A stretch of DNA of 64,000 bases, taken from contig JAFRTG010000035.1 of assembly GCA_017427265.1 (NCBI GenBank), forward strand, positions 1-64,000, read 5' to 3'. Numbering within the stretch: the first letter of the stretch is position 1; each line of letters begins with the position of its first letter. The notes under the pieces are model-generated. The model saw nothing but the letters and a program-made list of their open reading frames with translations, did not search any database and was not told the DNA's origin. Positions 3,492 to 19,086 of the stretch are shown in pieces. This DNA is from Oscillospiraceae bacterium. GTDB taxonomy: Bacteria; Bacillota; Clostridia; Oscillospirales; Ruminococcaceae. Both the position numbers and the translations under genes were made by a program.

Positions 3492-4544
3492 ATGGCAAAA
3501 GCGAGAAAACTGCCCTCTGGCAGCTGGAGCGTCAATCAGTTCATAGGCTACGACTCGAACGGCAAACGTATCTACAAGCGCTTCACGGCACCCACCAAAC
3601 GCGAGGCGGAATATCTTGCCGCGGAGTTCGTGGCAAAGAAAAAACGCCCCGTCGGACGGATGACCGTCGGCGAGGCGATAGACAGGTATATAGAAAGCAA
3701 GGACGGCGTCCTGTCGCCGACCACAGTAAACGGATACCGGAACATCCGCCGGCATCATCTTGCCGGCATCATGGATATCCAGATAGACCGCCTGACGCGT
3801 GAGGATGTGCAGCGCGAGGTCAACCGTGAGGCGAAGCTGCACAGCGCGAAAACCGTCATCAATGCGCACGGGCTGCTCGCAGCGGCGCTTGCAATGCACA
3901 ATCCCGATTTCATCCTACGGACGACGCTGCCGCGCAAAGTAAAACAGCTCAAACGCGATCTGCCAACCTCTGAGGACGTTATCAGAGCCGTTCACGGAAC
4001 GCCTGTGGAGCTTCCGGTGCTGCTGGCTATGTGTCTGTGCCTGCGGCTCTCAGAGGTCAGAGGCGTGCGCAGGAGCGCTGTGGAGGGCAACCTGCTTCGC
4101 ATTGATCGCGTGATCGTGACCGTCAGAGGCGCGCACATCGAAAAGGAGCTTGCGAAGACGGATGCAACCAGGCGTTATGTGGAGCTGCCTCCACACCTCA
4201 GAGACATGATTCTCGCATCCGAGACGGAGTACATCACAGAGCTGACAGGCCGCGCGATCTATGGCCGATTCGTCAACGCCATGAAGAAAGCCGGCTTCGA
4301 GGGTGTCCGCTTCCACGATCTACGGCACATCTCCGCAAGTGACATGCACGCCCGCGGGATCCCGGACCGTGTTGCAGCTGAGCGCGGCGGATGGTCCGGC
4401 ACTCAGACCATGCAGCAGGTCTATCAGCACACCTTTTCGCAGGACCGCCGGAAGGCCGATCAGATCATGTCGGATTACTACGAGGAATTGCTCGATGCAA
4501 CACAAAATGCAACACGAAACATTGAAATGCACGAATCTGCGTGA
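3492..4544 (+). CDS. int: tyrosine recombinase (phage integrase)
   Basis: This 350-residue integrase catalyses site-specific insertion and excision of the element. The N-terminus (residues 1-50) is an arm-binding AP2-like domain (SGSWSVNQFIGYDSNGKRIY then FTAPTKREAE), residues about 57-140 are the SAM-like core-binding domain, and residues about 160-330 are the catalytic domain. Expected active-site residues are Arg185 (LRLSE), Lys222, His275-x-x-Arg278, Trp301 in the His/Trp position and Tyr311 (QVYQHTF). AAAGGGGAGTGAG precedes the ATG. The gene ends 10 bases before the tRNA-Gly-derived att site, as expected for a tRNA-targeting integrase. Confidence 0.95.
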   Translation: MAKARKLPSGSWSVNQFIGYDSNGKRIYKRFTAPTKREAEYLAAEFVAKKKRPVGRMTVGEAIDRYIESKDGVLSPTTVNGYRNIRRHHLAGIMDIQIDRLTREDVQREVNREAKLHSAKTVINAHGLLAAALAMHNPDFILRTTLPRKVKQLKRDLPTSEDVIRAVHGTPVELPVLLAMCLCLRLSEVRGVRRSAVEGNLLRIDRVIVTVRGAHIEKELAKTDATRRYVELPPHLRDMILASETEYITELTGRAIYGRFVNAMKKAGFEGVRFHDLRHISASDMHARGIPDRVAAERGGWSGTQTMQQVYQHTFSQDRRKADQIMSDYYEELLDATQNATRNIEMHESA

Positions 4545-4582: not shown

Positions 4583-4629
4583 AAAAGCATCGCATTTGCG
4601 CAGATTTAACGCAGATGCGATGCTTTTTT
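4583..4629. terminator. strong bidirectional terminator between int/att and the transport operon
   Basis: Arms 4583-4600 and 4610-4627 pair over 17 of 18 positions (AAAAGCATCGCATTTGCG with its near-complement) around a 9-base loop, flanked by A- and T-runs on either side. It can end transcripts from int or the tRNA on the plus strand and the BtuD-like gene on the minus strand, whose stop codon is at 4628. Confidence 0.85.
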
Positions 4630-5740
4630 ATTCTGCAAACTCTGTGCACAGCTTTCCGGAATCTACAGCCTGATTTTTCAGCGTTTCATTTCTCTGATTC
4701 ATGGTACCGAAGCTGCTGATGAAGCAAATCACCTGTCTGCATTGTTCCATCAGCGCAGATGCTTTCCTGACTGCATCCTCACTGACCGGTTCAAATGCTT
4801 TCTCCGTGATCACTGCAGACGCAAGTGCGGACGCAACCGGATATTCCAGATCGTTTTCATGAAGGACACCGACAGCAAACGGAATCCCCATGCGGTGCAG
4901 CTTTCTGTATACCGGAATTCCTGCGCCGCCTCCGCCGATCACAAATATTTCCGGTTCTCCTGATTCTGCAGAAGGCTCTGCAGTGCCGAACCGCGGGTCA
5001 TATATCCCGTTTTGAATTTCATAGAGCTGTGAGATATAGTCTCCGGAAAAAATTTCTTCCGGTGTGCCGATCCGCTCCGCTGTTCCGTTGTGTACACAAA
5101 TAACCGTATCCGAAAACTTCTGCGCGAGATCCAGCTCATGCAGCGACTGAATCACGGCAATCTGACGTTCTTTTGCAAGTCTGCGCAGCAGCGAGAGAAT
5201 ATGCAGCTTGTGCCCGATATCAAGAAAGGATGTCGGTTCATCCAGCAGCAGAATCTTTGGCTGCTGTGCGATTGCGCGCGCAAGCATCACACATTGCCGC
5301 TGTCCGTCACTGATCTGCCGGAAATCGGTGTCATACAGATGCGACGCTCCGACAAGCTGCATCGCATCCCGTGCAATTTTTTTATCCTCTGCGCTGAGAA
5401 TGCCGAGCGTTCCGGTATACGGATATCTGCCGGTTTCGGCAACATCACCGCAGGTCATGCGCTCAGCAGTTATTTTTTGCGTCAGCAGTAGAGAAAGCCG
5501 TCTGGATATATCCTTCTCCTGCAGCAGACTGAGACTGTCGCCGCAAAGCGCAATATTTCCGGAAAGTACAGGAAGCTGTGCAGCAACTGTTTTCAGAACG
5601 GTCGATTTGCCCGCGCCGTTCGGACCGATCAGCGTGCATATTTCGCCCGCAGAAACGGAAAATGTCAGCCTGTCAACAATGATCTTTTTGCTGTATCCGA
5701 CAGAAAGCGCATCCGTTTGCAGCACTTCCTTCTGATTCAT
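4628..5740 (-). CDS. btuD: cobalamin/tetrapyrrole-type ABC transporter ATPase with extra C-terminal domain
   Basis: This is a 370-residue FecE/BtuD-family ATPase that powers import with the permease encoded just upstream (ATGA overlap). It has Walker A GPNGAGKST (39-47), a Q-loop Gln near 88, a signature in the variant form ISDGQ (143-147), Walker B ILLLDEPTS (163-171) and the H-loop His201. Residues about 263-370 are an added domain starting with IFVIGGGGAGIPVYRKL, glycine-rich and Rossmann-like, beyond the usual ~255-residue length. Start 5740 follows AAAGGAGC; longer in-frame starts inside the permease lack a ribosome binding site. It is the last gene of the riboswitch-controlled operon. 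The exact substrate is inferred from that control. Confidence 0.88.
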   Translation of the reverse strand: MNQKEVLQTDALSVGYSKKIIVDRLTFSVSAGEICTLIGPNGAGKSTVLKTVAAQLPVLSGNIALCGDSLSLLQEKDISRRLSLLLTQKITAERMTCGDVAETGRYPYTGTLGILSAEDKKIARDAMQLVGASHLYDTDFRQISDGQRQCVMLARAIAQQPKILLLDEPTSFLDIGHKLHILSLLRRLAKERQIAVIQSLHELDLAQKFSDTVICVHNGTAERIGTPEEIFSGDYISQLYEIQNGIYDPRFGTAEPSAESGEPEIFVIGGGGAGIPVYRKLHRMGIPFAVGVLHENDLEYPVASALASAVITEKAFEPVSEDAVRKASALMEQCRQVICFISSFGTMNQRNETLKNQAVDSGKLCTEFAE

Positions 5741-6762
5741 GATGTGCTCCTTTCCTTTGCACGGTGCAGCATAATATAAATGACGACCGGTGCGCCGAAC
5801 ACTGCTGTTACAGTACTGACACTCAGCTCCTGCGGTGCAAACAGCGTGCGTGCGATCAGATCGCAGCCCATGCAAAAGACACCGCCACCCAGAAATGCCG
5901 CCGGAATCAGAATCAGCGGCTTGGCCGTACCAAACATCCCTTTCATCAGATGCGGCACGGCAATGCCGACAAAGGATACCGGCCCTGCAAACGCCGTCAC
6001 ACATGCAGACAGCAAACTGGAAAGCAGAATCAGGAGCAGCCGGAACCGCCGGATATTGACACCCATATTTTCTGCATACGCTTCACCGAGCTGATAGGCA
6101 CCGATCGGCTTGGAGAGCAGAAATGCACCGATCAGCGCAGCAAATACCAGAAGCGTCATCGCACGGATATCCTGCCAGTCCGCGCCGGAAAAGCTGCCCT
6201 TTGACCAGTTATGCAGATTGACAATGTTGGCGTCATCTGCAAATGTCACTGCAAGATCGGTCAGCGCATTACAGATATAGCCGATCATGACACCGGAGAT
6301 CACCAGCTGCGCCATGCTCCGTACCTTGCCGGAGAACAGCAGCACCATCAGCATACACAATACTGCACCGACAAATGCCGCTGCAATCATCATACTGCTG
6401 TGCATCACAAAACCGTGCTGCAGTGCTGCAATCATCAGCAGAGCAACGGTCAGCTTTGCGCCGGACGATATTCCGAGCACAAAAGGTCCGGCAATCGGAT
6501 TGCGGAAAAAACTCTGCAATAAGAAGCCGGAAACCGATAACCCGCCGCCGAGAATCAGAGCAGAAAGTGTCCGCGGCAGCCGGATATCGGTCAGAATGCG
6601 CACCGATGCAGCGTCCGCAGGACGACCGGTCAGAATGCCGAAAACCGATGCCGGAGATATATGGGTGCTGCCGGACATCAGGCTCAGGCAGAAGAAAAGC
6701 CCGGCAAGCACAAGCAGCCCGATAAAACAAATCGAAACGCGCAGCATACGCCGTTTTTCCAT
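5737..6762 (-). CDS. btuC: BtuC/FecCD-family ABC transporter permease
   Basis: This 341-residue polytopic membrane protein of the FecCD family dimerises to form the import channel for cobalamin- or siderophore-like ligands. Recognisable family landmarks are RLPRTLSALILGGGLSVSGFLLQSFFRNPIAGPFVLGISSGA (about residues 61-102), the GWCKGS-like 'NLHNWSKGSF' segment, and GPVSFVGIAVPHLMK (about residues 258-272), which contacts the ATPase. It lies 10 bases after the binding-protein gene and overlaps the ATPase gene. Placement downstream of a cobalamin riboswitch supports corrinoid uptake. Confidence 0.9.
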   Translation of the reverse strand: MEKRRMLRVSICFIGLLVLAGLFFCLSLMSGSTHISPASVFGILTGRPADAASVRILTDIRLPRTLSALILGGGLSVSGFLLQSFFRNPIAGPFVLGISSGAKLTVALLMIAALQHGFVMHSSMMIAAAFVGAVLCMLMVLLFSGKVRSMAQLVISGVMIGYICNALTDLAVTFADDANIVNLHNWSKGSFSGADWQDIRAMTLLVFAALIGAFLLSKPIGAYQLGEAYAENMGVNIRRFRLLLILLSSLLSACVTAFAGPVSFVGIAVPHLMKGMFGTAKPLILIPAAFLGGGVFCMGCDLIARTLFAPQELSVSTVTAVFGAPVVIYIMLHRAKERSTS

Positions 6763-6772
6763 ATGTGATACC

Positions 6773-7900
6773 TCAATGAATCCGGTGCAGATAGGTCAGC
6801 TGTTCAATGTTCTCCGCCTGACCGGAAAAGATGTAGTTCAGGTCGGTCATCATATCCGCAGCACCGGTCGTCTGCTGATAGAAATTCTGCTCCGTGCACC
6901 ATACAGCATCGTCCTGTACTGCACGAAAATCCTTGAAAACAGATGACTTTTCAATCAGCTGCGCGATGGAATCCAGCTGTCCCTCTATTGTGCTGTTATA
7001 GATCAGGATATCTGCATTCTTCGCAATCGAATAGAATGTTTCCATCTGAATATTCATGGTTGAAAGCGCGTTGTCGTCAATATGCAGATCGTCTGCGGTG
7101 AAAATATAACGCCCGCCTGCAAGGCCGATCATCTGTGAAATGTAGTCGCCCGGCTTGCGGATATTGACCGCCCCGTTTGCTGTCACGCTGAAAAAGGCGA
7201 CCGTTTTGCGTTCGGCATCGGAAATATCAGGGAGCTGCAGCGCATGAAATCCCGCAGTTTTCTCCTCAAAGACCTTTTCCGCTTCCTCCTCTTTGCCGAG
7301 CAGAAGCCCGTAGAGCTTCATCCATTCCATGCGTCCGAGCGGATGCTGCTCATAGCTGGAGCGTTCCACGATCACCGGAATGCCCAGCGATTCAATCTGC
7401 TCTTTGACAGCCGGGCTGTGCGAGATCATCGTGTTTTCAATCGCAAGCGGACAGTCGGATTCCGTCAGTGCCTCGTAGTCCGGCGCGCTGTATTTGCCGA
7501 TGAACGTGAGCTCCCCGCGCTGCATCGCGTCCTGTACCGCAGGAAGCGTCCAGCCGCCGATGTCTGTCGATGTCATCGTAACCGCATCCAGCGAGCCGAT
7601 CGCATCGAACAGATCCATTGCGGAGGAGGAAGCCAGATAAATATCGCCATGCGGCTGACGAATGACAGGCAGCGAATTCCCTTCCGGTTCTGAACATCCG
7701 TCCGGCACAAACAGATAGCTTTCAGCAGCGATGTGAATGACGAAGCAGCCGTCCGTGCAGTGATCGACGGAAAACTGCTCCGCATATTCCAGCGGCATCT
7801 GACCTGTGATTTGATAACCGGCTGTGTCCGGCTCTGTATGCGCCGCACAGCCGGTCAGCAGAATGAATGCTGCCGCAAACGGAAGAACCCGTTTCATCAT
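6773..7900 (-). CDS. btuF: BtuF/FecB-like substrate-binding lipoprotein
   Basis: This 375-residue surface lipoprotein captures the ligand for the BtuCD-like importer. A signal peptide ends in the lipobox LLTGC (Cys near residue 18). The body has the two-lobed TroA/FecB architecture: lobe 1 with VTMTSTDIGGWTLPAV and FIGKYSAPDYEAL, a long linking helix (GRMEWMKLYGLLLGKEEEAE), and lobe 2 with VAFFSVTANGAVNIRKPGDYISQMIGLAGG. The first ~65 residues before lobe 1 are longer than usual. The start overlaps the upstream lipoprotein stop. A corrinoid ligand is inferred from the riboswitch; haem or another tetrapyrrole is possible. Confidence 0.8.
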   Translation of the reverse strand: MMKRVLPFAAAFILLTGCAAHTEPDTAGYQITGQMPLEYAEQFSVDHCTDGCFVIHIAAESYLFVPDGCSEPEGNSLPVIRQPHGDIYLASSSAMDLFDAIGSLDAVTMTSTDIGGWTLPAVQDAMQRGELTFIGKYSAPDYEALTESDCPLAIENTMISHSPAVKEQIESLGIPVIVERSSYEQHPLGRMEWMKLYGLLLGKEEEAEKVFEEKTAGFHALQLPDISDAERKTVAFFSVTANGAVNIRKPGDYISQMIGLAGGRYIFTADDLHIDDNALSTMNIQMETFYSIAKNADILIYNSTIEGQLDSIAQLIEKSSVFKDFRAVQDDAVWCTEQNFYQQTTGAADMMTDLNYIFSGQAENIEQLTYLHRIH

Positions 7901-8856
7901 TTGACGGAGGCGGAATCGAAATACAGCGTATATTCGATCTCGTGCGGCGTACTCATGGCAGTCGTATCTGCTGTGATTTTCAGTTTGCGGTCAAAAGCGG
8001 AGACAGGAATCTCAAAAACAGAAAATTCGGTGGTATCGGTCGGCTCATACTTTTCGCCGTCCACAATCATATAGTCATACTTGTTGCTGCTCCAGATAAT
8101 CTCCGCTGCTGCCTGACCGCCGGAGACAGTCAACTTGGCGGGAGACTGCACGCTGGCTTTGCCGGAGCCGCCCTCCAGTGTCACATCTACCGTATATTCG
8201 CCGTCTGCAAGTCCGAGGGATGCAGCGGTGACCTTTTCCTGCTGGGGCAGCGCATCCTCCGGGAGCGAATCCGCACGAAAGACCAGCTTGCGGTCATACC
8301 ATAGCTGCTTTTTGCGGCTGAATGCAGCGCAGTCGATTGCCTGATTGAGCGCTTCCACAGGGAATGTGAAGATGCAGCCGCTGTCTGTTTCGTCGGGAGC
8401 GATGAACGCTGATACATCGGCCTGTGCAGCCTGCTCTGCCGTTCCCGCAAAGAGATATTCATAGCTCTTGCTGCCGATTGTCAGCGCAGCGGTCATTTTG
8501 CCGTCTGCGACAGTCAGCCTGCAGTCCGCAATCTTGAACATGGACGAGCTGGAATCGACGGAAATCTGGTATTCGCCCTCTTTGACCGCTTCGGCCGGAA
8601 CTGGCTCCATGCCCTCGTATCCGACTGCATCTGCTTCGATGACATCATCGCCTGTTGCGACGGCAAGCGAGGATTCGTCAGCAGTGACCGTTTCGGCCTG
8701 TGTGGTTTCCGGTGCGATTTCTGTTGCCGTTTCTGCTGCTGCGCTTTCCTGAACAGCCGGTGCAGTATCAGTCGGCTGCATATCCGGCAGCGTATTGCCG
8801 CAGCCGGTCAAAAGCAGCGCACAGAGCAGTGCGATCGTCCAAGTCTTCTGTTTCAT
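7897..8856 (-). CDS. lipoprotein with two tandem beta-sandwich (NEAT-like) domains
   Basis: This 319-residue lipoprotein has a signal peptide with LLTGC lipobox (Cys19), then an Ala/Thr/Glu-rich spacer to about residue 90 that would lift the domains off the membrane. Two related repeats follow: about 92-195 (GEYQISVDSSSSMFKI... ending RKLVF) and about 210-315 (GEYTVDVTLEGGSGKASV, then YDYMIVDGEKYEP, ending HEIEYTLYF). The pattern 'DGxY-V-V...A.L.V..G...A.I.....Y.Y...G..Y.P' recalls NEAT or iron-transport-associated domains, which bind haem in other Firmicutes. Lying between an exported CbiK and the BtuF-like protein, it may bind or relay a tetrapyrrole. That role is inferred. Confidence 0.6.
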   Translation of the reverse strand: MKQKTWTIALLCALLLTGCGNTLPDMQPTDTAPAVQESAAAETATEIAPETTQAETVTADESSLAVATGDDVIEADAVGYEGMEPVPAEAVKEGEYQISVDSSSSMFKIADCRLTVADGKMTAALTIGSKSYEYLFAGTAEQAAQADVSAFIAPDETDSGCIFTFPVEALNQAIDCAAFSRKKQLWYDRKLVFRADSLPEDALPQQEKVTAASLGLADGEYTVDVTLEGGSGKASVQSPAKLTVSGGQAAAEIIWSSNKYDYMIVDGEKYEPTDTTEFSVFEIPVSAFDRKLKITADTTAMSTPHEIEYTLYFDSASVK

Positions 8857-8879
8857 ACAATTTCCTCCCGATACAGAAA

Positions 8880-8901
8880 CCGGACAGCCGAAACTGTCCG
8901 G
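8880..8901 (-). other. intercistronic hairpin between cbiK and the lipoprotein gene
   Basis: CCGGACAG (8880-8887) and CTGTCCGG (8894-8901) pair perfectly around a 6-base loop, in the 54-base gap between the two genes. Only a weak T-rich stretch (TTTCTG) follows on the minus strand, so it may be a partial terminator or an mRNA-stability element that tunes downstream expression. Confidence 0.5.
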
Positions 8902-8910
8902 ATCGTAATA

Positions 8911-9966
8911 TTACTGAATCGAATCAATCGCAGCCTGTGCGTGCTCGACATACAGCTTGCGGATTTCTTCATTTTCACCGAGGCCGCGTACCACGCATTT
9001 GACCTCATAGCCTGCACTCTCGAAAACGGATTTCCAGGAATCCTCTTCATCGCCTGCCATGTCGTTGTTGGCGTGATCGCCTGCAACAACCATCAGCGGC
9101 TCCAGAACAACGCGCTCATAATCGCCCGCCTGAACCAGCTTCAGCACATCGTCCACGGACGGCGTTGCTTCCACCGTGCCGACAAAGTAATTCTTGTAGC
9201 CGTCAGCAGTCAGCAGATCCTGCATCTTCTGATAAACCGCATTGGAATCGGCCTCTGTTCCGTGACCCATGAAGCAGATCGCGGTCTTTCCGTCGTCATA
9301 TTCCTTTGTCCAGTCGGTGATTGCCGCTTCCACGCGCTTGAAATCGTCATCGCTCGTGAGCAGCGGCTTGCCGAATACGACCTTGTCAAAGGCATCGGAC
9401 TTTGCGCCGACCTGATCAATCAGATCATTGTATTCCAGACCGTTCATCAGGTGAGTCGGCTGAACAACAAGCGTTTTGACGTTGTTGTCGATTGCACGCT
9501 GCAAAGCAGCATCCACATCGTCAATGAGAATGCCGTCGCGGCGGTTCACATGGTCGATGATGATATTTGCAGTAAAGCCGCGGCGCACACTGTAATCCGG
9601 AAACGCCTTTTCCAGCGAATCCTCGATTGCACCAATCGTCAGGCGGCGGCTGTCATTGTAGCTTGTACCGAAGCTCAGAACCAGCAGCTCCTTTTCGCCG
9701 ATCTCGTCCTGATTGCGTACATTGTCAAGCGATGCATCGCCGGTATCGTAGTTTTCCTCATCTTCCTCAGGCTCTTCCTCCTCTTCGGAAGACGCATCCT
9801 CCGGAGCAGTTGTTTCTTCAACCGAGGATTCCTCCGGGACAGCAGTTGTTTCGGCAGCGCTGCTCTCCGTATTCTGTGTATCTGCAACGGAACCGGATTC
9901 TCCGCAGCCGGTAACCGCAGCAGCCATCATTGCAAGACTCATGATAACAGCAAGTTTCCTTTTCAT
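8911..9966 (-). CDS. cbiK: exported lipoprotein form of anaerobic cobalt chelatase CbiK
   Basis: This is a 351-residue protein of the CbiK family, which inserts Co2+ into sirohydrochlorin (factor II) in the anaerobic B12 pathway. Unlike the classic cytoplasmic ~264-residue enzyme, it starts with a signal peptide and lipobox (AVTGC, Cys21) and a Glu/Asp/Ser-rich tether (residues about 23-90). The catalytic trio is present: His235 in MGHGTE, Glu267 in GTVEATP and His298 in AGDHANNDM, with spacings (32 and 31) close to those of Salmonella His145/Glu175/His207. It is the first gene after the cobalamin riboswitch, followed by the tandem-domain lipoprotein and the importer. Why a biosynthetic chelatase should act outside the membrane is unresolved. 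Confidence 0.88.
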   Translation of the reverse strand: MKRKLAVIMSLAMMAAAVTGCGESGSVADTQNTESSAAETTAVPEESSVEETTAPEDASSEEEEEPEEDEENYDTGDASLDNVRNQDEIGEKELLVLSFGTSYNDSRRLTIGAIEDSLEKAFPDYSVRRGFTANIIIDHVNRRDGILIDDVDAALQRAIDNNVKTLVVQPTHLMNGLEYNDLIDQVGAKSDAFDKVVFGKPLLTSDDDFKRVEAAITDWTKEYDDGKTAICFMGHGTEADSNAVYQKMQDLLTADGYKNYFVGTVEATPSVDDVLKLVQAGDYERVVLEPLMVVAGDHANNDMAGDEEDSWKSVFESAGYEVKCVVRGLGENEEIRKLYVEHAQAAIDSIQ

Positions 9967-10404: not shown

Positions 10405-11034
10405 CTACAGTTTTTTGTCAGCTAGATACAGAAGCGCATTGCAGATTGCCGCCGCAACATTGCTCCCGCCCTTTCGCCCGCGTGCGGCAATACAGGGGAT
10501 TCCGGACGCGATCAGCATTTCCTTTGACTGCACCACATTGACAAATCCGACCGGAACTGCTATGACAAATTCCGGACGGAAAATCCCCTGCTCAATGAGC
10601 TCCGTCAGCCGGATGAGCGCCGTCGGAGCATTGCCGACAGCGTAGATGACAGGCTTTCCGAGCCTGGCGGCTTTCTCAACAGATGCCGTTGCTCTGGTTG
10701 TGCCGTTCTTTTTTGCTGCATCCGCGATATCCGCGTCTGCCATAAAGCATTCGCATGTGCAGCCGTGCCGCGAAAGCGCTGCTTTGTTGATCCCGGATTT
10801 TGCCATATTGGTATCTGTCACAAAAACAGCCTTTTTCTGTATCGCCTGCATCGCTGTTTCTATCATACCCGGTGAAAAATAAAGACTGTCGAGATAATCA
10901 AAGTCTGCTGTCGTATGGATCACGCGCATGACAACCGGCTTGATGTCGTCAGGAATCTCACGGTCAAGCTCAGATTCAATAATCTCAAAGCTGCGGCGTT
11001 CGATATCTGCCGGCAGAACGTACTCGAGCTTCAT
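10405..11034 (-). CDS. cbiC: cobalt-precorrin-8 methylmutase
   Basis: This 209-residue CbiC moves the methyl group from C11 to C12 to give cobyrinate. The catalytic His is visible as His40 in VMRVIHTTADFDY, and the family motifs FVTDTNMAKSGIN, YAVGNAPTAL and GIPCIAARGRKGGSNVAAAI are all present. The start overlaps the cbiP stop by 4 bases. It is the last gene of the corrin operon and ends shortly before the promoter of the riboswitch operon. Confidence 0.96.
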   Translation of the reverse strand: MKLEYVLPADIERRSFEIIESELDREIPDDIKPVVMRVIHTTADFDYLDSLYFSPGMIETAMQAIQKKAVFVTDTNMAKSGINKAALSRHGCTCECFMADADIADAAKKNGTTRATASVEKAARLGKPVIYAVGNAPTALIRLTELIEQGIFRPEFVIAVPVGFVNVVQSKEMLIASGIPCIAARGRKGGSNVAAAICNALLYLADKKL

Positions 11035-12503
11035 ACACCATCCTCCATAATCTGATAGACCTTTGCTATATCAATACTCTTCCGCACGGTATCAGCAAGC
11101 AGATCAAGCTGCGCTTCACGATGCGCACGGCGGTCAAGCACTTCTCCGTGATATTGCAGCCCCTTTGCCTGATACAGCGCATGAACCAGTGCACCGGAAA
11201 CCGCTGCGCTGTCAAATATCCCGTGTACATAGCAGCCGGCGATATTGCCGGAATAACGGCCGCCGCAGCTCGTCAGCGGTGCAGAGCTGCTTTCCGTACT
11301 GCCCATATGTACCTCATAGCCGTAAAAGGAAGCACCCGATAAACAGGAAAAAAAGCCGGGCAGGCTGCAAAAAGTCCCCGCTGTCTGCGTCTGTGTTTTC
11401 TCCGGATCAAAAACAGTTCTGCAATCCGGCAGCAAGCTGAGACCGCGGATACTCCCCCCGCATTCAACACACGCCGGGTCAGAGATCTCACATCCAAGCA
11501 TCTGGTATCCGCCGCAGATACCGAACACGGGGAATCCGCGCCGGGCAAGCGAGAATACAGCCTGCTCCATACCGGTTTCGCGCATCCACTGCATATCTGC
11601 AATCGTGCTTTTGGTGCCCGGCAGAATCAGCAAATCCGGGTTGCCGAGCTGTTCCGGCGCTGATACATACCGCACAGAAACGCCCGCATACTGCGTCAAT
11701 ACATCGAAATCAGAGAAATTGGAAATCTTTGGAAAGCGGATCACCGCAATATCTATGATCCCCGTATTCTGCGATTTGTTCAGCCGCTGTGAGAGGCTGT
11801 CCTCATCCTCAAGATCATGCTGAATATACGGCATCACGCCGAGAACAGGCTTCCCGCTTTTTTGCTCTAAAATCCGGACGCCGTCGTCAAACAGGGACAG
11901 ATCGCCGCGGAACCGGTTGACAATAAGGCCTTTTATAAGATTCTGCTCATGCGGTTCAAGCAGTGAATAAGTGCCTAAAAGCTGCGCAAACACACCGCCG
12001 CAGTCGATATCCCCGACCAGCAGCACCGGAATCCGCAGCATGTCCGCAAGCCCCATATTGACAATGTCATTTTCTTTCAGATTCAGCTCAACCGGGCTTC
12101 CGGCGCCTTCGACGACGATGATGTCATACTGCGAAGCGAGTGTTTCGTATGCATACCGGATATCCGGAATCAGTTCGGTTTTTCGTCTGAAATACTCTGC
12201 TGCCCGCATATTGCCGCGTGCCTTGCCGTTGACAATAACCTGTGAGCCGACATCGGTTGTCGGTTTGAGCAGGACCGGATTCATCAGCGCTGAGGGCTCA
12301 ATCCCAGCGGCCTCTGCCTGCAAAGCCTGTGCCCGCCCGATTTCCAGACCGTCCGGTGTTATATAAGAATTCAGCGCCATATTCTGCGATTTGAACGGTG
12401 CAGCGCGGAAGCCGTCCTGCCGGAAAATACGGCATAAAGCTGCTGTCAGCAGGCTTTTTCCGGCACCGGACATCGTGCCCTGAATCATGATTGCTTTTCT
12501 CAT
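11031..12503 (-). CDS. cobQ: cobyric acid synthase (cobyrinic diamide amidase)
   Basis: This 490-residue CbiP/CobQ amidates side chains b, d, e and g of adenosylcobyrinic diamide, using ATP and glutamine. The N-terminal ATP-binding domain has a P-loop-like GTMSGAGKS (residues 9-17) and the family stretch AQALQAEAAGIEPSALMNPVLLKPT; the C-terminal class I glutamine amidotransferase domain has the nucleophile Cys in GICGGYQML and the His in YVHGIFD. It overlaps cobD upstream and cbiC downstream by 4 bases each. Confidence 0.96.
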   Translation of the reverse strand: MRKAIMIQGTMSGAGKSLLTAALCRIFRQDGFRAAPFKSQNMALNSYITPDGLEIGRAQALQAEAAGIEPSALMNPVLLKPTTDVGSQVIVNGKARGNMRAAEYFRRKTELIPDIRYAYETLASQYDIIVVEGAGSPVELNLKENDIVNMGLADMLRIPVLLVGDIDCGGVFAQLLGTYSLLEPHEQNLIKGLIVNRFRGDLSLFDDGVRILEQKSGKPVLGVMPYIQHDLEDEDSLSQRLNKSQNTGIIDIAVIRFPKISNFSDFDVLTQYAGVSVRYVSAPEQLGNPDLLILPGTKSTIADMQWMRETGMEQAVFSLARRGFPVFGICGGYQMLGCEISDPACVECGGSIRGLSLLPDCRTVFDPEKTQTQTAGTFCSLPGFFSCLSGASFYGYEVHMGSTESSSAPLTSCGGRYSGNIAGCYVHGIFDSAAVSGALVHALYQAKGLQYHGEVLDRRAHREAQLDLLADTVRKSIDIAKVYQIMEDGV

Positions 12504-13531
12504 CCGTACACCTCTCTGACAGCTGCAAGCAGCATGCGGTTCTCGTCATGCGTGCGGACTGCGATCCGGAAATGCGCAGATGACAGGCCGTGAAAATCCG
12601 AGCAGCTTCGGACTAAAATCCGGCGTTCCCGCATCTTCGCACCGAACTCCGGTTCAGTTTTCAGCAGCATGAAATTCGCACTCCCCGGATAAACCGTCAC
12701 TCCGCCGGCGGGCAGAAGCTCCTCTAAAAACATCCGCTCTGCCTTGAGATATGAGACGGTTTTCCGGATCCATTCCGTTTCCCGGAGCGCGGCAATTCCG
12801 GCAGCCTGTGCAGGAACGGATACGCTCCAATACTGTCCGGTACATCGGATTTTTTCAGCGAGCAATTCATTTCCGCAGACAGCATAGCCAAGGCGCAGGC
12901 CGGGCATCGCATAGAGCTTTGTAAAAGCATTCAGAATCACACAGTTCTCATTCCAATATGAACGCAGGCTGTATTGCGCAGGAGATTCCGTAAAACGCAA
13001 AAAGCATTCGTCCGATATCAGAAGCGCATGCTTTTCAAGGCATTGATCTGCGATTTTCTTCAGGAGTTCCGGCGAAATCAGCTGACCGGTCGGATTATTC
13101 GGCGTGCATAAAAACACGATATCCGTTTCATCCGATATTGCAGACAGAAAGCCTTCGTCAAGCTGAAAATTCGCTGCAGGGTCAAGCGCATATTCCGCGA
13201 CGCTGCATCCCGCTTCCCGCAGCGCAAAGGCATACTCCGAAAAGGTCGGTGCACAGATCAGCGCGTGCTTCGGCCGGAAAGCGTGTGAAATACGGTAAAT
13301 CATATCTGCTGCACCGTTTCCGCAAACAATCTGCGCGGGCGGAATCTGCTCAAATCCGGAGATGCACTGTGTCAGTGCGGTACAGTGCGGGTCCGGATAA
13401 TGAACGCAGTTTCCTGCGGCGTCAAGAATTGCCCTCCGCACGGCGTCAGGCATTCCGAGCGGATTGATATTCGCTGAAAAATCAAGCATTTCTTTATTCT
13501 GATAAATATTTCCGCCGTGTATTTTCATCAT
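12500..13531 (-). CDS. cobD: L-threonine-O-3-phosphate decarboxylase
   Basis: This 343-residue PLP enzyme of aminotransferase fold I makes (R)-1-amino-2-propanol phosphate, the linker of the B12 nucleotide loop. It opens with the family signature KIHGGNIY then LDFSANINPLGMP. The PLP lysine lies in NAFTKLYAMPGLRLGYAV, and CTPNNPTGQLI is the cofactor-binding loop. Start 13531 (ATGATG after GGAGTATT) overlaps the cbiB stop; the upstream in-frame ATG at 13555 lies inside cbiB. This is the Salmonella-type CobD, distinct from cbiB, which is also called cobD in aerobic nomenclature. Confidence 0.94.
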   Translation of the reverse strand: MMKIHGGNIYQNKEMLDFSANINPLGMPDAVRRAILDAAGNCVHYPDPHCTALTQCISGFEQIPPAQIVCGNGAADMIYRISHAFRPKHALICAPTFSEYAFALREAGCSVAEYALDPAANFQLDEGFLSAISDETDIVFLCTPNNPTGQLISPELLKKIADQCLEKHALLISDECFLRFTESPAQYSLRSYWNENCVILNAFTKLYAMPGLRLGYAVCGNELLAEKIRCTGQYWSVSVPAQAAGIAALRETEWIRKTVSYLKAERMFLEELLPAGGVTVYPGSANFMLLKTEPEFGAKMRERRILVRSCSDFHGLSSAHFRIAVRTHDENRMLLAAVREVYG

Positions 13532-14493
13532 AGAATACTCCAAAACAAAATGCACCGTACCGCGGATGCGAGAATCAGCATCAGGACAGAGGTGCAGTAC
13601 ATTAACCGGTTTGCACAGCGGATATCTGCCGGTTCGATCGCCCGGTCATCGTCCCCGATATACGGCTTTTTGTGCAGTTTCCCGAAATACCATGCATCCC
13701 CCGCAAGCCGCAGATGCAATGCTCCGGCACAGACGGATTCTGTCTGCGCAGAGTTGGGGCTTGCATGCTTTCTGCGGTCACGCCGCCAGATTCGCAATGC
13801 ATGTTTCGCATCCAGATGCAGCAGCGGACAAGCCGCAATCATCAGCAAGGCAGACAGCCTTGACGGTATATAGTTCAGCACATCGTCGAACCTTGCCGCG
13901 CATCTTCCGAGGTCAGCATACTTTTCATTCTGATAGCCGATCATCGAATCCATGGTATTCGCAGCTTTATAAAAAAAGCCGCCGACAGCCCCGCCGAATG
14001 CAATATAGAACAGCGGTGCAGTCACACCGTCAGAGGTGTTTTCCGCTACTGTTTCGACCGCTGCGCGGATAATTCCGGCGCGGTCAAGAACCGAAGTGTC
14101 ACGCCCCACAATCATGGAAACAGTCCTGCGTGCAGCCTCGGTATCGCCGGCTTCTGCTGCCCGGCAGACCTTCATGCTTTCGTCGCGCAGATTACGCGCC
14201 GCAAGCAAATAAAAAATCAGGAAACTTTCCGCAATTAATCCGAAAACAAGATGAATCCGATAGCAAAGCAGCAGAATCGTCAGCGGAATGATCGAGGATA
14301 CAAACAGAACGGTAACAACAAGAATAAATCCGCCCAAACGCATATTGTGCAGGTTTTTTCGTATGATACGCTCCAGCAGAGATATCAGTTTTCCGATCAG
14401 ACGGATCGGATGCGGCATCCGGTACGGATCGCCGATACAGGCGTCAAGCAAAAATCCGATGACAAGCGGCAAAGCCGGAATCAGGTGTTTCAT
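13528..14493 (-). CDS. cbiB: adenosylcobinamide-phosphate synthase
   Basis: This 321-residue membrane protein attaches aminopropanol (phosphate) to adenosylcobyric acid. It has the CbiB hallmarks: hydrophobic N-terminus then DACIGDPYRMPHPIRLIGKLI, the stretch RTVSMIVGRDTS, and VAENTSDGVTAPLFY followed by AANTMDSMIGYQNEKY. Start 14493 (MKHLIPALPL) has a GGAG 11 bases upstream. It lies one base after cobC and overlaps cobD. It is predicted to span the membrane several times, with its partners acting at the cytoplasmic face. Confidence 0.94.
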   Translation of the reverse strand: MKHLIPALPLVIGFLLDACIGDPYRMPHPIRLIGKLISLLERIIRKNLHNMRLGGFILVVTVLFVSSIIPLTILLLCYRIHLVFGLIAESFLIFYLLAARNLRDESMKVCRAAEAGDTEAARRTVSMIVGRDTSVLDRAGIIRAAVETVAENTSDGVTAPLFYIAFGGAVGGFFYKAANTMDSMIGYQNEKYADLGRCAARFDDVLNYIPSRLSALLMIAACPLLHLDAKHALRIWRRDRRKHASPNSAQTESVCAGALHLRLAGDAWYFGKLHKKPYIGDDDRAIEPADIRCANRLMYCTSVLMLILASAVRCILFWSIL

Positions 14494-14494
14494 G

Positions 14495-15055
14495 TTATAT
14501 GCGCTCCGTAACAATCAGTGTATGGCCGTCATACTGACAGCACCAACCGCGGCCGTTCTCAGTCATCCAGTCAAAATAGTCACGCTGCGGCTTTGCAAAA
14601 TACGACAAAACAGACATGATCGTACCGCCGTGCACAATCATTGCCATGCTTTCAGCAGACTGATGCTTCTGTGTGACCGCAAGAAACCCGCCGCAGCAGC
14701 GCCTGCGAAAAGCATCCGGCGATTCCCCTTCCGGAAACGGCATTTCGCCGGCGCTGTCAATCCATTCCTGATAAAGCGGATTCCCGTTCAGTTCTGTGTG
14801 ATTTTTCCCCTCAAACAATCCAAAATCGCATTCGCGGAATGCATCACAGATTTCGGCGTTCATGCCCGGAAAAAGCATCCCGGCTGTCTGGATGCAGCGC
14901 TGCATCGGGCTGGAAACAATCACATCGCACTGCGGAAAGCGGCGTTCTCTCAGGGCCGAGATTCCTTCCGGGCAGAGCGGCTCATCCGTGCGCCCGATAT
15001 ACCGTTTTTTCAAATTCCCGGCTGTCATTCCGTGCCGGATCAGCAAGATTTTCAC
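14495..15055 (-). CDS. cobC: alpha-ribazole phosphatase (histidine phosphatase family)
   Basis: This 186-residue enzyme removes the 5'-phosphate in the final steps of nucleotide-loop assembly. It has the RHG catalytic motif (LLIRHGMTAGN, residues about 5-15), an SSPMQRCIQTA stretch with the second Arg, the acid/base Glu in FGLFEGKNHTEL and the second His in IVHGGTIMS. GTG at 15055 is the start: AAAGGAGC lies 8 bases before it and it overlaps the upstream stop as GTGA. Assignment over a generic phosphatase rests on the operon. Confidence 0.88.
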   Translation of the reverse strand: MKILLIRHGMTAGNLKKRYIGRTDEPLCPEGISALRERRFPQCDVIVSSPMQRCIQTAGMLFPGMNAEICDAFRECDFGLFEGKNHTELNGNPLYQEWIDSAGEMPFPEGESPDAFRRRCCGGFLAVTQKHQSAESMAMIVHGGTIMSVLSYFAKPQRDYFDWMTENGRGWCCQYDGHTLIVTERI

Positions 15056-15435
15056 AGTAATGCTCCTTTGATTGCAGTCGGAATCCCGCATACCAGCCGG
15101 ATGACGCTGTCAGCATGTGCAGCAATGATACAGCCGCATCTCCCGACGGTTTCACGCCAGATGCGTTCCGGTTTTTCCATCGGTATGATGCCGCTGCCGA
15201 TTTCGTCAATCAGAATGATACAATCCGGATTTTCCTGACACAACTTTTCCGTGAAAGCCTCTGCATCCATTCCGGCGTCTGCGGCACGGCGAACGAGAAC
15301 ATGATAATTCTTCAGAATTTTCGATGATTTCGCTTCTTCAAAGTCACAGCAGGCGCCGTCGGTAATTGCAAACGGAACATGTGCCTGTGCATAAGCGGTT
15401 TTTCCCTGATAGGCACCGCCTGTAATCAGAATCAT
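15052..15435 (-). CDS. short CobU-like P-loop protein
   Basis: This is a 127-residue paralogue of adenosylcobinamide kinase/guanylyltransferase. It keeps the P-loop (ITGGAYQGKTAYA, residues 4-16) and the C-terminal signature (LIDEIGSGIIPM, then RIWRETVGRCGCIIAAHADSVIRLVCGIP) but lacks most of the middle of CobU, including a clear guanylylation His motif. Start 15435 overlaps the cobS stop as ATGA. A full-length cobU lies two genes upstream. Conservation of both ends argues for a working specialised protein rather than a decaying gene. The activity is not known. Confidence 0.8.
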   Translation of the reverse strand: MILITGGAYQGKTAYAQAHVPFAITDGACCDFEEAKSSKILKNYHVLVRRAADAGMDAEAFTEKLCQENPDCIILIDEIGSGIIPMEKPERIWRETVGRCGCIIAAHADSVIRLVCGIPTAIKGALL

Positions 15436-16202
15436 GTAAGTCCCCCCGTGACGATTCCGGCTAAAACGGCTGCTGCAAGCACGGTAATCTCGCAAAGCTG
15501 CAGAAACCAGCCGCAGAGATCGCCGGTCGTTCCGCCGAAATCCTGATATGCAATATATTTATAGTACAGAAAACACAGCAAGGCGCCGCCGAACACTGCA
15601 CATCCCCGTATGAAATCCGCCAGAAGCATAGCAAAAATTGCTGCGGCTGCAAATGCACAGACCATACCGATTGTGACGGAACGGTGCGACGGTTTTACAA
15701 AATCCTGCAGCGTACCTTCCTTTTTGGCACAGCGGAACGTCACGGCTGACAATCCGCTGCAGGAACGCGAAAGAATATATCCGCAGGCAATCACCGCCGT
15801 ACTCCGGATATCAGAAATCTGTGCAAACAGCACGGTTTGCAGAATCAGATACAGGCAAACGCGAATTACGGCAAACGAGCCGATATGCGGATCAGACATG
15901 ATCTGCAGTTTCTTTTCGCGGTCAGCGCAGGAAGCACGCGCATCCGTCACATCGCAGAAGCCGTCAAGATGAATGCCGCCCGTTACTGATATCGGAATCA
16001 GCACGGCGACAGCCGCAAACAGCATCCGGCTGCAGCCGAAACGGGCGCAAAACATATGCCAGAGCAGAAGCATTCCGCCGATGACCACGCCGATCAGTGG
16101 AAACCATCCAAGCGCATACCGTCGGTTTTCTTCCTTCCAAGCAACCTGCGGCACCGGAATGCGTGAGTACATCAAAAAAGCGGAAATCAGCGATTTGAGC
16201 AT
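15432..16202 (-). CDS. cobS: adenosylcobinamide-GDP ribazoletransferase (cobalamin synthase)
   Basis: This 256-residue integral membrane protein joins the lower ligand (alpha-ribazole) to adenosylcobinamide-GDP. Typical CobS motifs are FLMYSRIPVP (residues about 9-18), RYALGWFPLIGVVIGG, and the acidic GGIHLDGFCDVTDA, in which the Asp residues probably bind Mg2+, followed by DREKKLQIMSDPHIGSFAV. Several hydrophobic helices fill the rest. It lies 4 bases downstream of cobU and overlaps the short CobU-like gene. Confidence 0.95.
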   Translation of the reverse strand: MLKSLISAFLMYSRIPVPQVAWKEENRRYALGWFPLIGVVIGGMLLLWHMFCARFGCSRMLFAAVAVLIPISVTGGIHLDGFCDVTDARASCADREKKLQIMSDPHIGSFAVIRVCLYLILQTVLFAQISDIRSTAVIACGYILSRSCSGLSAVTFRCAKKEGTLQDFVKPSHRSVTIGMVCAFAAAAIFAMLLADFIRGCAVFGGALLCFLYYKYIAYQDFGGTTGDLCGWFLQLCEITVLAAAVLAGIVTGGLT

Positions 16203-16206
16203 ATGT

Positions 16207-16716
16207 TCACCCCTTTACCGTGACGGGTATGCCGTATATACATTCGATGACCTTGTCAGCTGCAAGTGCGATTTTCTGATTGATTCTGCCGAGCGCGCTG
16301 ATATAAGCCGCGGTACCGTCTCCGTAAGTGATTCCGTCGCTTCCGACCTGATTTGTCACAATAACAAGCAAGGAAGTCCGCTGATAAAGCTGCTGAATAT
16401 CAGATATGATTTTATCCGCACAGTCTATGATTTTATCTCCGCGGAACATTTCATTTGCAAGAAGATTGCCCATGCATTCCAGTAAGACTGCGCTGCCGTC
16501 CGGGAAATCTGCACGGCCGATATCAGTATACTGTTCAACGGTCAGAAACCCTTTTTCCGCACGCATGATGCGGTGCCGTCTGATTGCAGTATGTGCTTCC
16601 TCGCCGAACGGCTGCATCGCAGCAAGATATATTTTCTGCTCGGTTCTGTTCCGGAAAAGAGACTCGGCATAACGCGATTTTCCGCATTTGGAACCGCCTG
16701 TCACCAGAATCATCAT
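16207..16716 (-). CDS. cobU: adenosylcobinamide kinase / adenosylcobinamide-phosphate guanylyltransferase
   Basis: This 169-residue bifunctional enzyme phosphorylates adenosylcobinamide and then adds GMP. It has P-loop TGGSKCGKSRYAE (residues 6-18), IRRHRIMRAEKGFLTVE with the His expected to carry GMP, LLECMGNLLANEMF, and the VTNQVGSDGITY stretch. This form with SDGITY is frequent in Clostridia, as opposed to GSGIVP in enterobacteria. The start overlaps the cobT stop as ATGA. Confidence 0.93.
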   Translation of the reverse strand: MMILVTGGSKCGKSRYAESLFRNRTEQKIYLAAMQPFGEEAHTAIRRHRIMRAEKGFLTVEQYTDIGRADFPDGSAVLLECMGNLLANEMFRGDKIIDCADKIISDIQQLYQRTSLLVIVTNQVGSDGITYGDGTAAYISALGRINQKIALAADKVIECIYGIPVTVKG

Positions 16717-17762
16717 GATTGTTTTGTATACCTCTCGATCGGTTCGTCGTCAAATTTGTGCGCATACCGGTAGAGCGCAAGTGCGCCGTCGAGCAGCGGC
16801 AGCAGAAGCAGTCCGCCAGTGCCTTCTCCGAGCCGCAGTCCGGCGTCTATGACCGGTTTCAGGTGCATCATATGCAGCAGACCGCTCGCAGCAGGTTCGC
16901 CGGAGCAGTGACTTGCAAGCATATATTCCGCACAGAGCGGATTCAGCCGGTATGCAATCGCCGCGGCAGCTGCGGAGATCACCCCGTCAATAATAACCGG
17001 AATCCGGTATACGGCACCGCCGAGAAACAGACCTGTCATGCCGGCTATTTCAAGCCCGCCGAGCATTTGCAGCAGGTGCAAAGGATGTTCAGCGGACGGT
17101 CTGTGCAATTCGATGCCGCGGCGGATTGTGCTGATTTTCCGGCGCAGCCCGTCATCAGACAGACCTGAGCCCCGTCCGGTGACTGCCTCCGGCGGAAGTC
17201 CCAGCAGAACTGCTGCGATTGCAGAAGCGGAAGTCGTATTGCCGATGCCCATTTCACCGGATACAATCATTCGGGTTCCGGCCGTTTTCAGCTCCCGGAC
17301 AATATCAATTCCGGTTCTGACTGCTGCGGTTGTTTGTTCTTCAGTCATGGCCGGTTCTTTTGTAAAATTCCGCGTTCCGGCTGCGATTTTTCTTTGTATA
17401 ATCCTGTCAGACTCTGCATTTGTTTTCATGCCGATATCAACGGCCAGAACTTCTGCATGAAATTCGCGCGCAATCGCATTGACATTGGATCTGCCCTCGG
17501 CGATTGCCGCTGCACAGATCGCTGTGACATCGCTGCCGCACTGTGTCACGCCTTCTTCCACAATGCCGTGATCGGCACAGAAAATAACCGCCGTCCGTCC
17601 GGAAATATCAATATCGGCAGAATGCTGTATCGCTGCAATCCTCTGCAGCATTTCTTCGAGATCACCGAAGCTGCCGAGCGGCTTTGCAATACTGTCCCAA
17701 TGAGATTTCGCCGCCAGATACGCAGAATCATCAGGCTTTTCAATCAGATGAATACGATCCAT
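16713..17762 (-). CDS. cobT: nicotinate-nucleotide-dimethylbenzimidazole phosphoribosyltransferase
   Basis: This 349-residue CobT makes alpha-ribazole phosphate from a lower-ligand base and nicotinate mononucleotide. It has AAKSHWDSIAKPLGSFGDLE, FCADHGIVEEGVTQ, EMGIGNTTSASAIAAVLLG, the GRGSGLSDDGLRRK loop and GLRLGEGTGGLLLLPLLD, whose Glu is the catalytic base. Start 17762 follows GGAGGAAA; an in-frame ATG at 17978 lies well inside cbiA and lacks a ribosome binding site. The first 23 bases overlap the 3' end of cbiA. The lower-ligand base cannot be told from sequence; no bza genes are in the window. Confidence 0.94.
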   Translation of the reverse strand: MDRIHLIEKPDDSAYLAAKSHWDSIAKPLGSFGDLEEMLQRIAAIQHSADIDISGRTAVIFCADHGIVEEGVTQCGSDVTAICAAAIAEGRSNVNAIAREFHAEVLAVDIGMKTNAESDRIIQRKIAAGTRNFTKEPAMTEEQTTAAVRTGIDIVRELKTAGTRMIVSGEMGIGNTTSASAIAAVLLGLPPEAVTGRGSGLSDDGLRRKISTIRRGIELHRPSAEHPLHLLQMLGGLEIAGMTGLFLGGAVYRIPVIIDGVISAAAAAIAYRLNPLCAEYMLASHCSGEPAASGLLHMMHLKPVIDAGLRLGEGTGGLLLLPLLDGALALYRYAHKFDDEPIERYTKQS

Positions 17763-19086
17763 CTTTTCCTCCGAATAGAGCGCAAGCAGATGCAAACCGC
17801 AGTGCAATGCGATAATCTGACGGGAAATAAAGATGCGGAAAGCCTGCGTATATCGTTTGGCTGGCGTGTCCGCATTCCCATGTTCGTCCGTCTGTTTTAC
17901 CGGCTGAAAAATCACTGCCGGGATTCGTGCTGTCCCAGTAATGGAATTCATGTGCCTTAACCGTTTCCCCGGCATCACAGATCAGATTGTCTGCATCGGT
18001 GTGCAGCGAGACATAGCCGAAACGCTGCAGGCGCTTTGTCGGAAAAACCCTGCCGCGGATCACACCGGCAAGCGGCAGGCAATGACCGTTTTTCGTTTCG
18101 ATTTCCTCATGCAGATACATGAAGCCGCCGCATTCTGCAATGACCGGCATCCCCGCCTGAACCGCATTCCGGAGCTCAGCCAGCATGGTCTGATTGGCAG
18201 ACAGCTGCTCTGCATACAGCTCCGGATACCCGCCGCAGAGCAGCAATCCGTCAGCCTGCGGCAAATGCGCATCTGCAAGCGGAGAAAAGAATTGGATTTC
18301 GCAGCCGGTTTCACGCAGAATGGAAAGGTTTTCCTCATACTGGAAACAAAACGCTTTATCATGCGCAACTGCAATGACCGGCTGTGAATTCAGTTTCGGT
18401 ATCACCGTTTTCCTGTATGCCGGCATCGGTCCGCACTTGACTTTCAGAATTTTATCAAGGAGAATATGCTTTTCGGCAAGTCTGCCGAGCACATCTGTTT
18501 TTTCATGAATATCCGTTATTTCAGATGCAGTAACGAGTCCGAGATGTCTGCTTTTGAGTGTATGTTCGTGAACCGGAAGGCAGCCGAAATATTCGGTGTG
18601 CAGCTCTGCACAAAGCTGCTCTGCAAACGGAATGAGACGCTCCGGAAGCTGATTCAGAATGAACCCTGCAATACGGTTCGGTTTCTGATACTGCAGAAAT
18701 CCCTGCATCACAGCGCCGATGGACTCTTTCATGCCGCGCGCGTTGATTACAAGAATGACGGGAGTTTCCGTAATTTCGGAAATGTGATAAGCGGAGCCCT
18801 CCGCCCCGTCATAAAAGCCCATTACGCCCTCAATCACGGCAATTTCTGCGCTCTGACAGCCGGCTTCAAGCAAATGGCACAGCTGATTGCGGTCACAGAA
18901 AAAGCTGTCGAGATTATGCGAGGGCGTGCCGAGAATCTCACGGTAAAACATCGGGTCAATATAATCCGGACCGCATTTGAACGCCGACACTTTCACGCCG
19001 CGCTGACGAAGCGCGGAAAGAACCGCGCAGGTCACGGTCGTTTTCCCGCATCCGCTTCCGGTTCCGGCAATCAGTACGCGCTGCAT
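17740..19086 (-). CDS. cbiA: cobyrinic acid a,c-diamide synthase
   Basis: This 448-residue enzyme amidates side chains a and c of cobyrinate. The N-terminal ATP-binding domain starts with VLIAGTGSGCGKTTVTCAVL (P-loop residues 8-16) and contains KCGPDYIDPMFY and EGVMGFYDG; the C-terminal glutamine amidotransferase domain has LLLCGGYPELYAEQL and the nucleophile Cys in IAECGGFMYL. It overlaps cbiET by 16 bases and cobT by 23. This is the single-protein (anaerobic) type. Confidence 0.95.
   Translation of the reverse strand: MQRVLIAGTGSGCGKTTVTCAVLSALRQRGVKVSAFKCGPDYIDPMFYREILGTPSHNLDSFFCDRNQLCHLLEAGCQSAEIAVIEGVMGFYDGAEGSAYHISEITETPVILVINARGMKESIGAVMQGFLQYQKPNRIAGFILNQLPERLIPFAEQLCAELHTEYFGCLPVHEHTLKSRHLGLVTASEITDIHEKTDVLGRLAEKHILLDKILKVKCGPMPAYRKTVIPKLNSQPVIAVAHDKAFCFQYEENLSILRETGCEIQFFSPLADAHLPQADGLLLCGGYPELYAEQLSANQTMLAELRNAVQAGMPVIAECGGFMYLHEEIETKNGHCLPLAGVIRGRVFPTKRLQRFGYVSLHTDADNLICDAGETVKAHEFHYWDSTNPGSDFSAGKTDGRTWECGHASQTIYAGFPHLYFPSDYRIALRFASACALFGGKDGSYSSD

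Follow-up and report, generated by a model that had tools for sequence, protein, structure and literature searches.

On balance, the window analysed here (the whole 64 000-nucleotide stretch of DNA) probably carries the extracytoplasmic front end of B12 synthesis in an organism that salvages tetrapyrrole precursors, activity and substrate being inferred from gene content and homology. This front end would be a unit headed by a cobalamin riboswitch, in which the genes are ordered as follows: CbiK (a chelatase with the signal of an exported lipoprotein), a tandem NEAT-like lipoprotein, a substrate-binding protein (SBP), a FecCD permease and an ATPase.

CbiK and its export signal

The CbiK open reading frame [8911–9966 (−)] encodes 351 amino acids, arranged as a signal (residues 1–20), Cys21, an acidic tether extending to about residue 90 and a class II chelatase domain (residues 92–347). 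The initial annotation had described a lipobox, an acidic tether of about 70 residues and a CbiK domain, all of which were recovered: the N-terminal signal is MKRKLAVIMSLAMMAAAVTGC and includes Cys21, the tether that follows it is 69 residues long with 25 D/E and a single K/R, and residues 92–347 match PF06180 from end to end (Pfam, 2e-81; profile positions 1–261 of 262). The same annotation pointed to a start codon downstream of the signal peptide, and hence a cytoplasmic enzyme, as the finding that would overturn export. An SD-like sequence, GGAAAGGA, lies upstream of the CbiK ATG, and a scan for start codons found no ATG, GTG or TTG in codons 15–126, so that an ordinary later start giving a cytoplasmic CbiK is excluded; relatives of the protein also keep their signals. 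Export was judged from the motif and from this comparison with relatives.

The active site had been placed at His235, Glu267 and His298. Both histidines stand, but the glutamate is residue 266, residue 267 being an alanine. His235, Glu266 and His298, presumably the catalytic residues, align with the His/Glu/His set of 1qgo and occupy columns that do not vary in the 18-row alignment of lipoprotein CbiKs, which includes that of the window (the L061 row is partial and the L051 row contains unread X residues). Against the NCBIfam equivalog model for sirohydrochlorin cobaltochelatase (NF047852), the window CbiK scores 229.7 bits, below the cut-off of 400.

The riboswitch-headed unit

The cobalamin riboswitch [RF00174; 10117–10329 (−); cmscan 80.9 bits, E 2.5e-18] ends 150 bases before the CbiK start, in agreement with the proposal of a B12-riboswitch operon in which CbiK comes first. 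The tandem-domain lipoprotein and the importer expected downstream are likewise real. The lipoprotein with two NEAT-like domains [7897–8856 (−)] is followed by the substrate-binding lipoprotein of an ABC importer [6773–7900 (−); PF01497, 7.9e-26; lipobox recognized by eye], a FecCD/BtuC-type permease [5737–6762 (−); PF01032, 1.6e-78] and an ABC ATPase with a C-terminal extension [4628–5740 (−); PF00005, 9.4e-28; likely start ATG 5740]. The best NCBIfam model for the permease is the curated BtuC model (205.7 bits, below the cut-off of 334), and that for the ATPase is ‘corrinoid ABC transporter ATPase’, also below cut-off. The ATPase extension [4628–5000 (−)] runs about 120 residues past the ABC domain and is partly covered by the corrinoid ATPase model NF007082, whose match reaches residue 428 of the 458-residue frame. 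A phage-type integrase gene [3492–4544 (+)] immediately adjoins the unit on its downstream side and converges with the ATPase gene.

Conservation of the unit

The family set comprised 148 genomes of the same family, 57 of which gave a CbiK match. Ten of these 57 are unclassified, having partial or weak matches (including G147, where the gene is broken); the other 47 provided 48 stretches (L050–L096 and the window as L097), and four more cob loci were added. By N-terminus, the 48 family CbiKs divide into 18 lipoproteins, 2 with a membrane segment and no lipobox, and 28 that look cytoplasmic; one genome, G012, has both a lipoprotein CbiK and a cytoplasmic one. The full order CbiK–NEAT–SBP–permease–ATPase is found at 14 of the 18 lipoprotein-CbiK loci. 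Among the remainder, G035 has CbiK, NEAT and SBP only, G111 and G005 are rearranged, and the G067 locus has a more distant permease and ATPase with zero matches to NEAT or SBP.

A scan of named genomes returned at least 590 relatives, from which the 80 most similar to the lipoprotein query were taken as a selected set. By title, these best 80 come from Oscillospiraceae, Lachnospiraceae and other Clostridia and are mostly gut or rumen MAGs, with isolates such as Ruminococcus flavefaciens ND2009 and Y1, Evtepia gabavorous KLE1738, Lachnoclostridium sp. An14 and Fusobacterium naviforme ATCC 25832 among them. A loose rule, under which the Cys picked in some relatives may not be the true one, classed 67 of these 80 as lipoproteins; 3 more have a lipobox by eye, 9 have a hydrophobic signal lacking a Cys (also by eye) and 1 is truncated at a contig end. 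The nine proteins with a signal but no lipobox Cys (L171, L182, L185, L198, L201, L202, L204, L206 and L210) may be secreted free or be attached in some other way. Export of CbiK thus seems to be kept across relatives though the type of signal varies.

Fifty-five named loci extend at least 6 kb downstream of CbiK; in 46 of them CbiK is followed by all four partners as separate genes, and 3 of the 9 exceptions carry a fusion of the NEAT part with CbiK. A cobalamin riboswitch was found at 17 of the 18 lipoprotein-CbiK family loci (the window and 16 of the 17 others, L084 having none); at L050 and L055 it precedes neighbouring genes of the unit. It was also present at all 8 named loci tried and at 4 of the 8 cytoplasmic-CbiK loci tried. 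At 37 of the 80 named loci no cob gene occurs in the fetched DNA. When gene clusters were compared by eye across loci, no additional conserved gene of unknown function was seen in the unit, the unlabelled clusters resembling antisense frames, genes for sensors or regulators, and the short CobU-like gene described below.

The NEAT-like lipoprotein and gene fusions

In the second domain of the tandem-domain lipoprotein (residues 214–319) a haem-binding NEAT fold is present. By sequence alone, the link of the lipoprotein to NEAT is weak: the window protein scores 31.5 bits against a Pfam NEAT gathering score of 32.8, a search of solved chains with it returned zero NEAT chains, and the family profile reached NEAT chains at E 0.12–0.27 only. 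Nine of the 11 members of its alignment match Pfam NEAT at E up to 0.01 (best 1.1e-10). The motif [H/Y]xxxY is found in 75 of 79 motif hits, with Y first in 11; YxxxY is the ligand motif of NEAT domains.

Gene fusions join the NEAT-like lipoprotein to its neighbours on either side. At 4 of the 80 named loci (L189, L192, L199 and L205) CbiK and the NEAT pair are fused in single open frames, and at 7 of the 80 (L175, L187, L188, L190, L191, L200 and L201) the NEAT pair is fused to the SBP. The frames of L199 and L203 were read and Pfam was run on 6 of the 12 loci; the NEAT part of the fusions is matched by the family profile of the NEAT-like lipoprotein and not by Pfam NEAT. Occurring on both flanks of the NEAT protein, these fusions are the best evidence in support of CbiK, the NEAT lipoprotein and the binding protein acting as what would be one extracellular relay. 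At L203 [7984–9849 (+)] the product is a lipoprotein with two complete tandem CbiK domains (Pfam 5e-161, two stretches).

Cobalamin genes and missing precursor genes

Upstream of the unit, the region 10405–24662 (−) encodes CbiD, CbiF, CbiG, CbiH, CbiJ, CbiET, CbiA, CobT, CobU, CobS, a second short CobU-like protein, a phosphatase, CbiB, CobD, CbiP and CbiC. The short CobU-like gene [15052–15495 (−)], beside CobS, corresponds by eye to a cluster present in 13 of the 97 compared loci. In the window genome, which is 99.34% complete, only four TP methylases occur, namely CbiF, CbiH, CbiE and the 16S rRNA methylase RsmI; it therefore has neither CbiL nor CobA, and with all four accounted for, a hidden copy of either was rejected. 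A search of this genome for HemB, HemC, CobA, SirC and CbiL found none of the five. Two PF13241 matches considered as a hidden SirC are a TrkA protein and, by eye, an FAD/FeS oxidoreductase. The initial annotation had suggested looking for another chelatase (CbiK or CbiX): with PF06180 and PF01903 none was detected, and the one CbiX candidate from PF01903 is the same CbiK gene. The genome keeps the corrin pathway from CbiH on, the corrin-ring pathway being incomplete for want of CbiL.

CbiC was found in 17 of the 18 lipoprotein-CbiK family genomes; neither a second full CbiK nor a CbiX was detected (E<1e-20) in 17 of the 18. The 48 family genomes with CbiC comprise 17 with a lipoprotein CbiK, 22 with a cytoplasmic CbiK only, 2 with an anchored CbiK and 7 with no full CbiK. 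HemB, HemC and CobA are all missing from 13 of the 17 lipoprotein-CbiK genomes versus 6 of the 22 cytoplasmic-only genomes (Fisher P = 0.004, kinship ignored), and CbiL is missing from 8/17 versus 1/22 (P = 0.005, kinship ignored). The loss of CbiL does not come from a single bad assembly, as 11 other genomes with CbiC lack it. Nine of these 11 have four TP methylases (one of those in G147 being a broken fragment, and G026 being only 87% complete), and in G011 and G019 a fifth occupies the position of CobA. For comparison, five or six were counted in each of seven genomes that have CbiL. Three of the 17 exported-CbiK genomes with CbiC (G005, G019 and G118) have HemB, HemC and CobA, and salvage is therefore not their only route. 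G012 has a HemC fragment and, as noted, a cytoplasmic CbiK besides its lipoprotein CbiK.

Among genomes without a lipoprotein CbiK whose locus was fetched, that locus holds a FecCD permease in 6 of the 9 genomes lacking HemB, HemC and CobA versus 0 of the 16 having them (P = 0.0005, kinship ignored; three further genomes with the three genes had no fetched locus, and three with CobA alone, one of these with a permease, were set aside). When all genomes are counted the figures are 18/22 and 3/19, a comparison made partly circular by the permease that belongs to the unit itself. At seven loci (L071, L075, L078, L086, L098, L099 and L100) a different FecCD permease and ATPase lie beside a cytoplasmic CbiK or cob genes, and the genomes concerned are mostly without precursor genes; perhaps import comes first there and cobalt insertion after. 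The gene for the cobalt importer CbiM is present in 10 of the 28 fetched loci with a cytoplasmic CbiK, in 0 of the 20 with an exported or anchored CbiK and in 0 of the 80 named loci; these counts apply only near the gene, as the fetched loci reach about 8–9 kb on each side.

Descent of the exported CbiKs and comparison with known systems

Exported relatives of CbiK are already known, and the two that we tested (FetB and 2xvx) tentatively fall elsewhere in the tree. The domain-trimmed tree had 84 rows: 48 domains came from the family set and 33 from the named set, where 32 of the 80 loci were represented, and the other 3 were PDB chains (IhtB itself was outside it). Apart from FetB and 2xvx, the 51 exported rows lie on one side of a branch with support 100/93. 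FetB and 2xvx are found together among cytoplasmic CbiKs, a placement that is tentative because the branches are long (bootstrap 0.989, not fully settled); common descent of the window CbiK with these two to the exclusion of cytoplasmic CbiK was not recovered. The two membrane-anchored CbiKs, L053 (G006) and L054 (G145), which have an N-terminal membrane segment and no lipobox, adjoin the exported clade and are possible intermediates in a move to the outside.

Along its whole domain the window CbiK is homologous to 1qgo (2e-44), with the same His/Glu/His; we take 1qgo and 2xwp to be Salmonella CbiK, a cytoplasmic sirohydrochlorin cobaltochelatase, which to our knowledge has no signal and no NEAT or importer unit. 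The entry 2xvx is presumably CbiKP, the periplasmic CbiK of Desulfovibrio vulgaris, an organism in which one of two CbiKs is reportedly cytoplasmic. Like the window protein it is an exported CbiK relative (5.1e-33), with its separate place in the tree, and we know of no NEAT partner for it. FetB and IhtB are CbiK-like proteins located outside the cytoplasm. FetB (PDB 9b86, ‘Heme-binding protein FetB’) is a close CbiK homologue by sequence (3.4e-43) that groups with 2xvx and not with the clade of the window, again on long branches.

Both CbiKs of D. vulgaris are described as functional (via PMC12654859), and Desulfovibrio has cbiK-cbiL and btuCDF under the joint control of a B12-element (PMC545781). 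CbiK also appears in a list of outer-membrane or extracellular proteins from Actinobacillus pleuropneumoniae (PMC10720984) and among the vesicle proteins of Tannerella forsythia, where the paper's own table marks it ‘C’ (PMC4604654), so that exported CbiKs are not new as such. These are surface material like the window protein; both organisms, however, are Gram-negatives, and the relevant parts of the two papers describe no such unit. The NEAT haem relays of Gram-positives (IsdX1, Hbp2, and IsdC with a FecCD-type importer) offer another likeness, from which the window unit differs in its B12-riboswitch control, its chelatase partner and a motif that begins with either H or Y. In titles and the beginnings of abstracts, a search that mostly left out subscription papers, no description of a CbiK–NEAT–SBP–FecCD unit was found.

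Alternative explanations

The role proposed for FetB and IhtB concerns haem or porphyrin (PMC13402209, PMC13227078): IhtB is called a putative ferrochelatase/reverse ferrochelatase (PMC13227078) and the FetB of Porphyromonas gingivalis is credited with making Mn-protoporphyrin (PMC13402209). By analogy, the surface CbiK of the window might remove or swap the metal of haem and the NEAT–ABC part import haem or porphyrin, the B12 riboswitch being a secondary link. The homology with FetB and the fact that known NEAT domains bind haem are in keeping with such a use. We nevertheless consider it unlikely, given the cobalamin riboswitch at nearly all lipoprotein-CbiK family loci, the presence in these genomes of CbiC and of a sole full CbiK/CbiX, and the position of FetB and 2xvx elsewhere in the tree.

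The similarity of the permease and ATPase to BtuC and corrinoid ATPase models, both below cut-off, would rather suit uptake of B12 or cobinamide, for which riboswitch control is, as a matter of general knowledge, usual; CbiK would then repair or bind metal-free or wrongly metallated corrinoids. This is less likely still. It leaves unexplained why CbiK should be the only CbiK/CbiX where the corrin-ring pathway is kept, as well as the link to lost precursor genes, and the substrate of CbiK in the known pathway is an uncontracted ring (PMC7242693).

The occurrence of HemB, HemC, CobA and CbiL together with a lipoprotein CbiK only, in G005 and G118, would be accommodated if an internal precursor were exported, metallated outside and re-imported, or if the surface CbiK supplemented internal synthesis that uses an unrecognized internal chelatase. 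We hold this to be very unlikely: it does not apply to the window genome, because the precursor genes were not found there, and no exporter-like cluster was seen among those common to at least 5 of the 97 loci (by eye, one member each). That the surface CbiK, understood to have a metal site, merely captures cobalt for a cobalt importer would fit the absence of a CbiM gene beside exported CbiKs, but is hardly credible when the NEAT fusion and the FecCD permease point to a ring and not an ion.

Proposed surface metallation and precursor salvage

Cobalt insertion at the surface into a salvaged ring, followed by import, is favoured by the combination of tetrapyrrole-type parts, a cobalamin riboswitch and a sole CbiK/CbiX. 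Because the window genome keeps the corrin pathway and the precursor genes searched for were not detected in it, its sole CbiK/CbiX most likely opens B12 synthesis by inserting the metal into such a ring at the surface. The cell would collect a metal-free isobacteriochlorin made by its neighbours, either sirohydrochlorin (factor II) or its 20-methyl form (factor III). The lipoprotein CbiK would insert Co2+ outside the membrane, which would also trap the ligand; the NEAT lipoprotein would accept the metallated ring and pass it to the binding protein, and the FecCD importer would bring it inside to CbiL, if present, or to CbiH. When cobalamin is plentiful, the riboswitch would shut the unit off. 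If the metal went in before import, the cell could do without a cobalt importer, in keeping with the CbiM counts near the gene.

The normal substrate of CbiK is sirohydrochlorin, and CbiL makes cobalt-factor III for CbiH (PMC7242693). The absence of CbiL from 8 of the 17 genomes counts against the salvage reading, because cobalt-sirohydrochlorin would need CbiL; a supply of the 20-methylated ring to genomes without CbiL is the simplest answer, and a guess. The cytoplasmic-only genomes that also lack HemB, HemC and CobA likewise count against a link with salvage.

The initial annotation had suggested extracellular metal insertion, metal exchange or tetrapyrrole capture linked to uptake, rather than simple biosynthesis. 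The first part is supported, in that the surface CbiK shares its B12-riboswitch unit with an importer and tetrapyrrole capture would be linked to uptake; the second does not seem to hold, since a sole CbiK/CbiX in a genome keeping the corrin pathway reads as an entry to B12 synthesis.

Like the tetrapyrrole precursor salvagers of Shelton et al. (2018, PMC6461909), the window genome keeps the corrin pathway and has lost precursor genes. It differs from them in that CbiL is missing too, and the relevant parts of that paper mention no uptake or surface chelation machinery. Precorrin-2 salvagers are put at 0.6% (PMC8123684), and a Porphyromonas case without precorrin-2 synthesis is described (PMC6461909). 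For these salvagers, as for the Porphyromonas case, the unit offers a defined and testable answer to the questions of how the ring enters and where cobalt is inserted.

Taken to its full extent, and here we are more tentative, the proposal is that anaerobic B12 synthesis may have had its first committed step moved outside the cell: rings made by others would be metallated by a lipoprotein cobaltochelatase and handed through NEAT to the importer, lineages without CbiL would use the 20-methylated ring, and B12 synthesis would be split between species at a metal-free isobacteriochlorin. The records of carriers are mostly from gut and rumen and include isolates (R. flavefaciens, E. gabavorous). 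If the proposal is true, gut microbes would trade metal-free B12 intermediates, and predictions of B12 producers from genomes that count CbiK as cytoplasmic would need revision.
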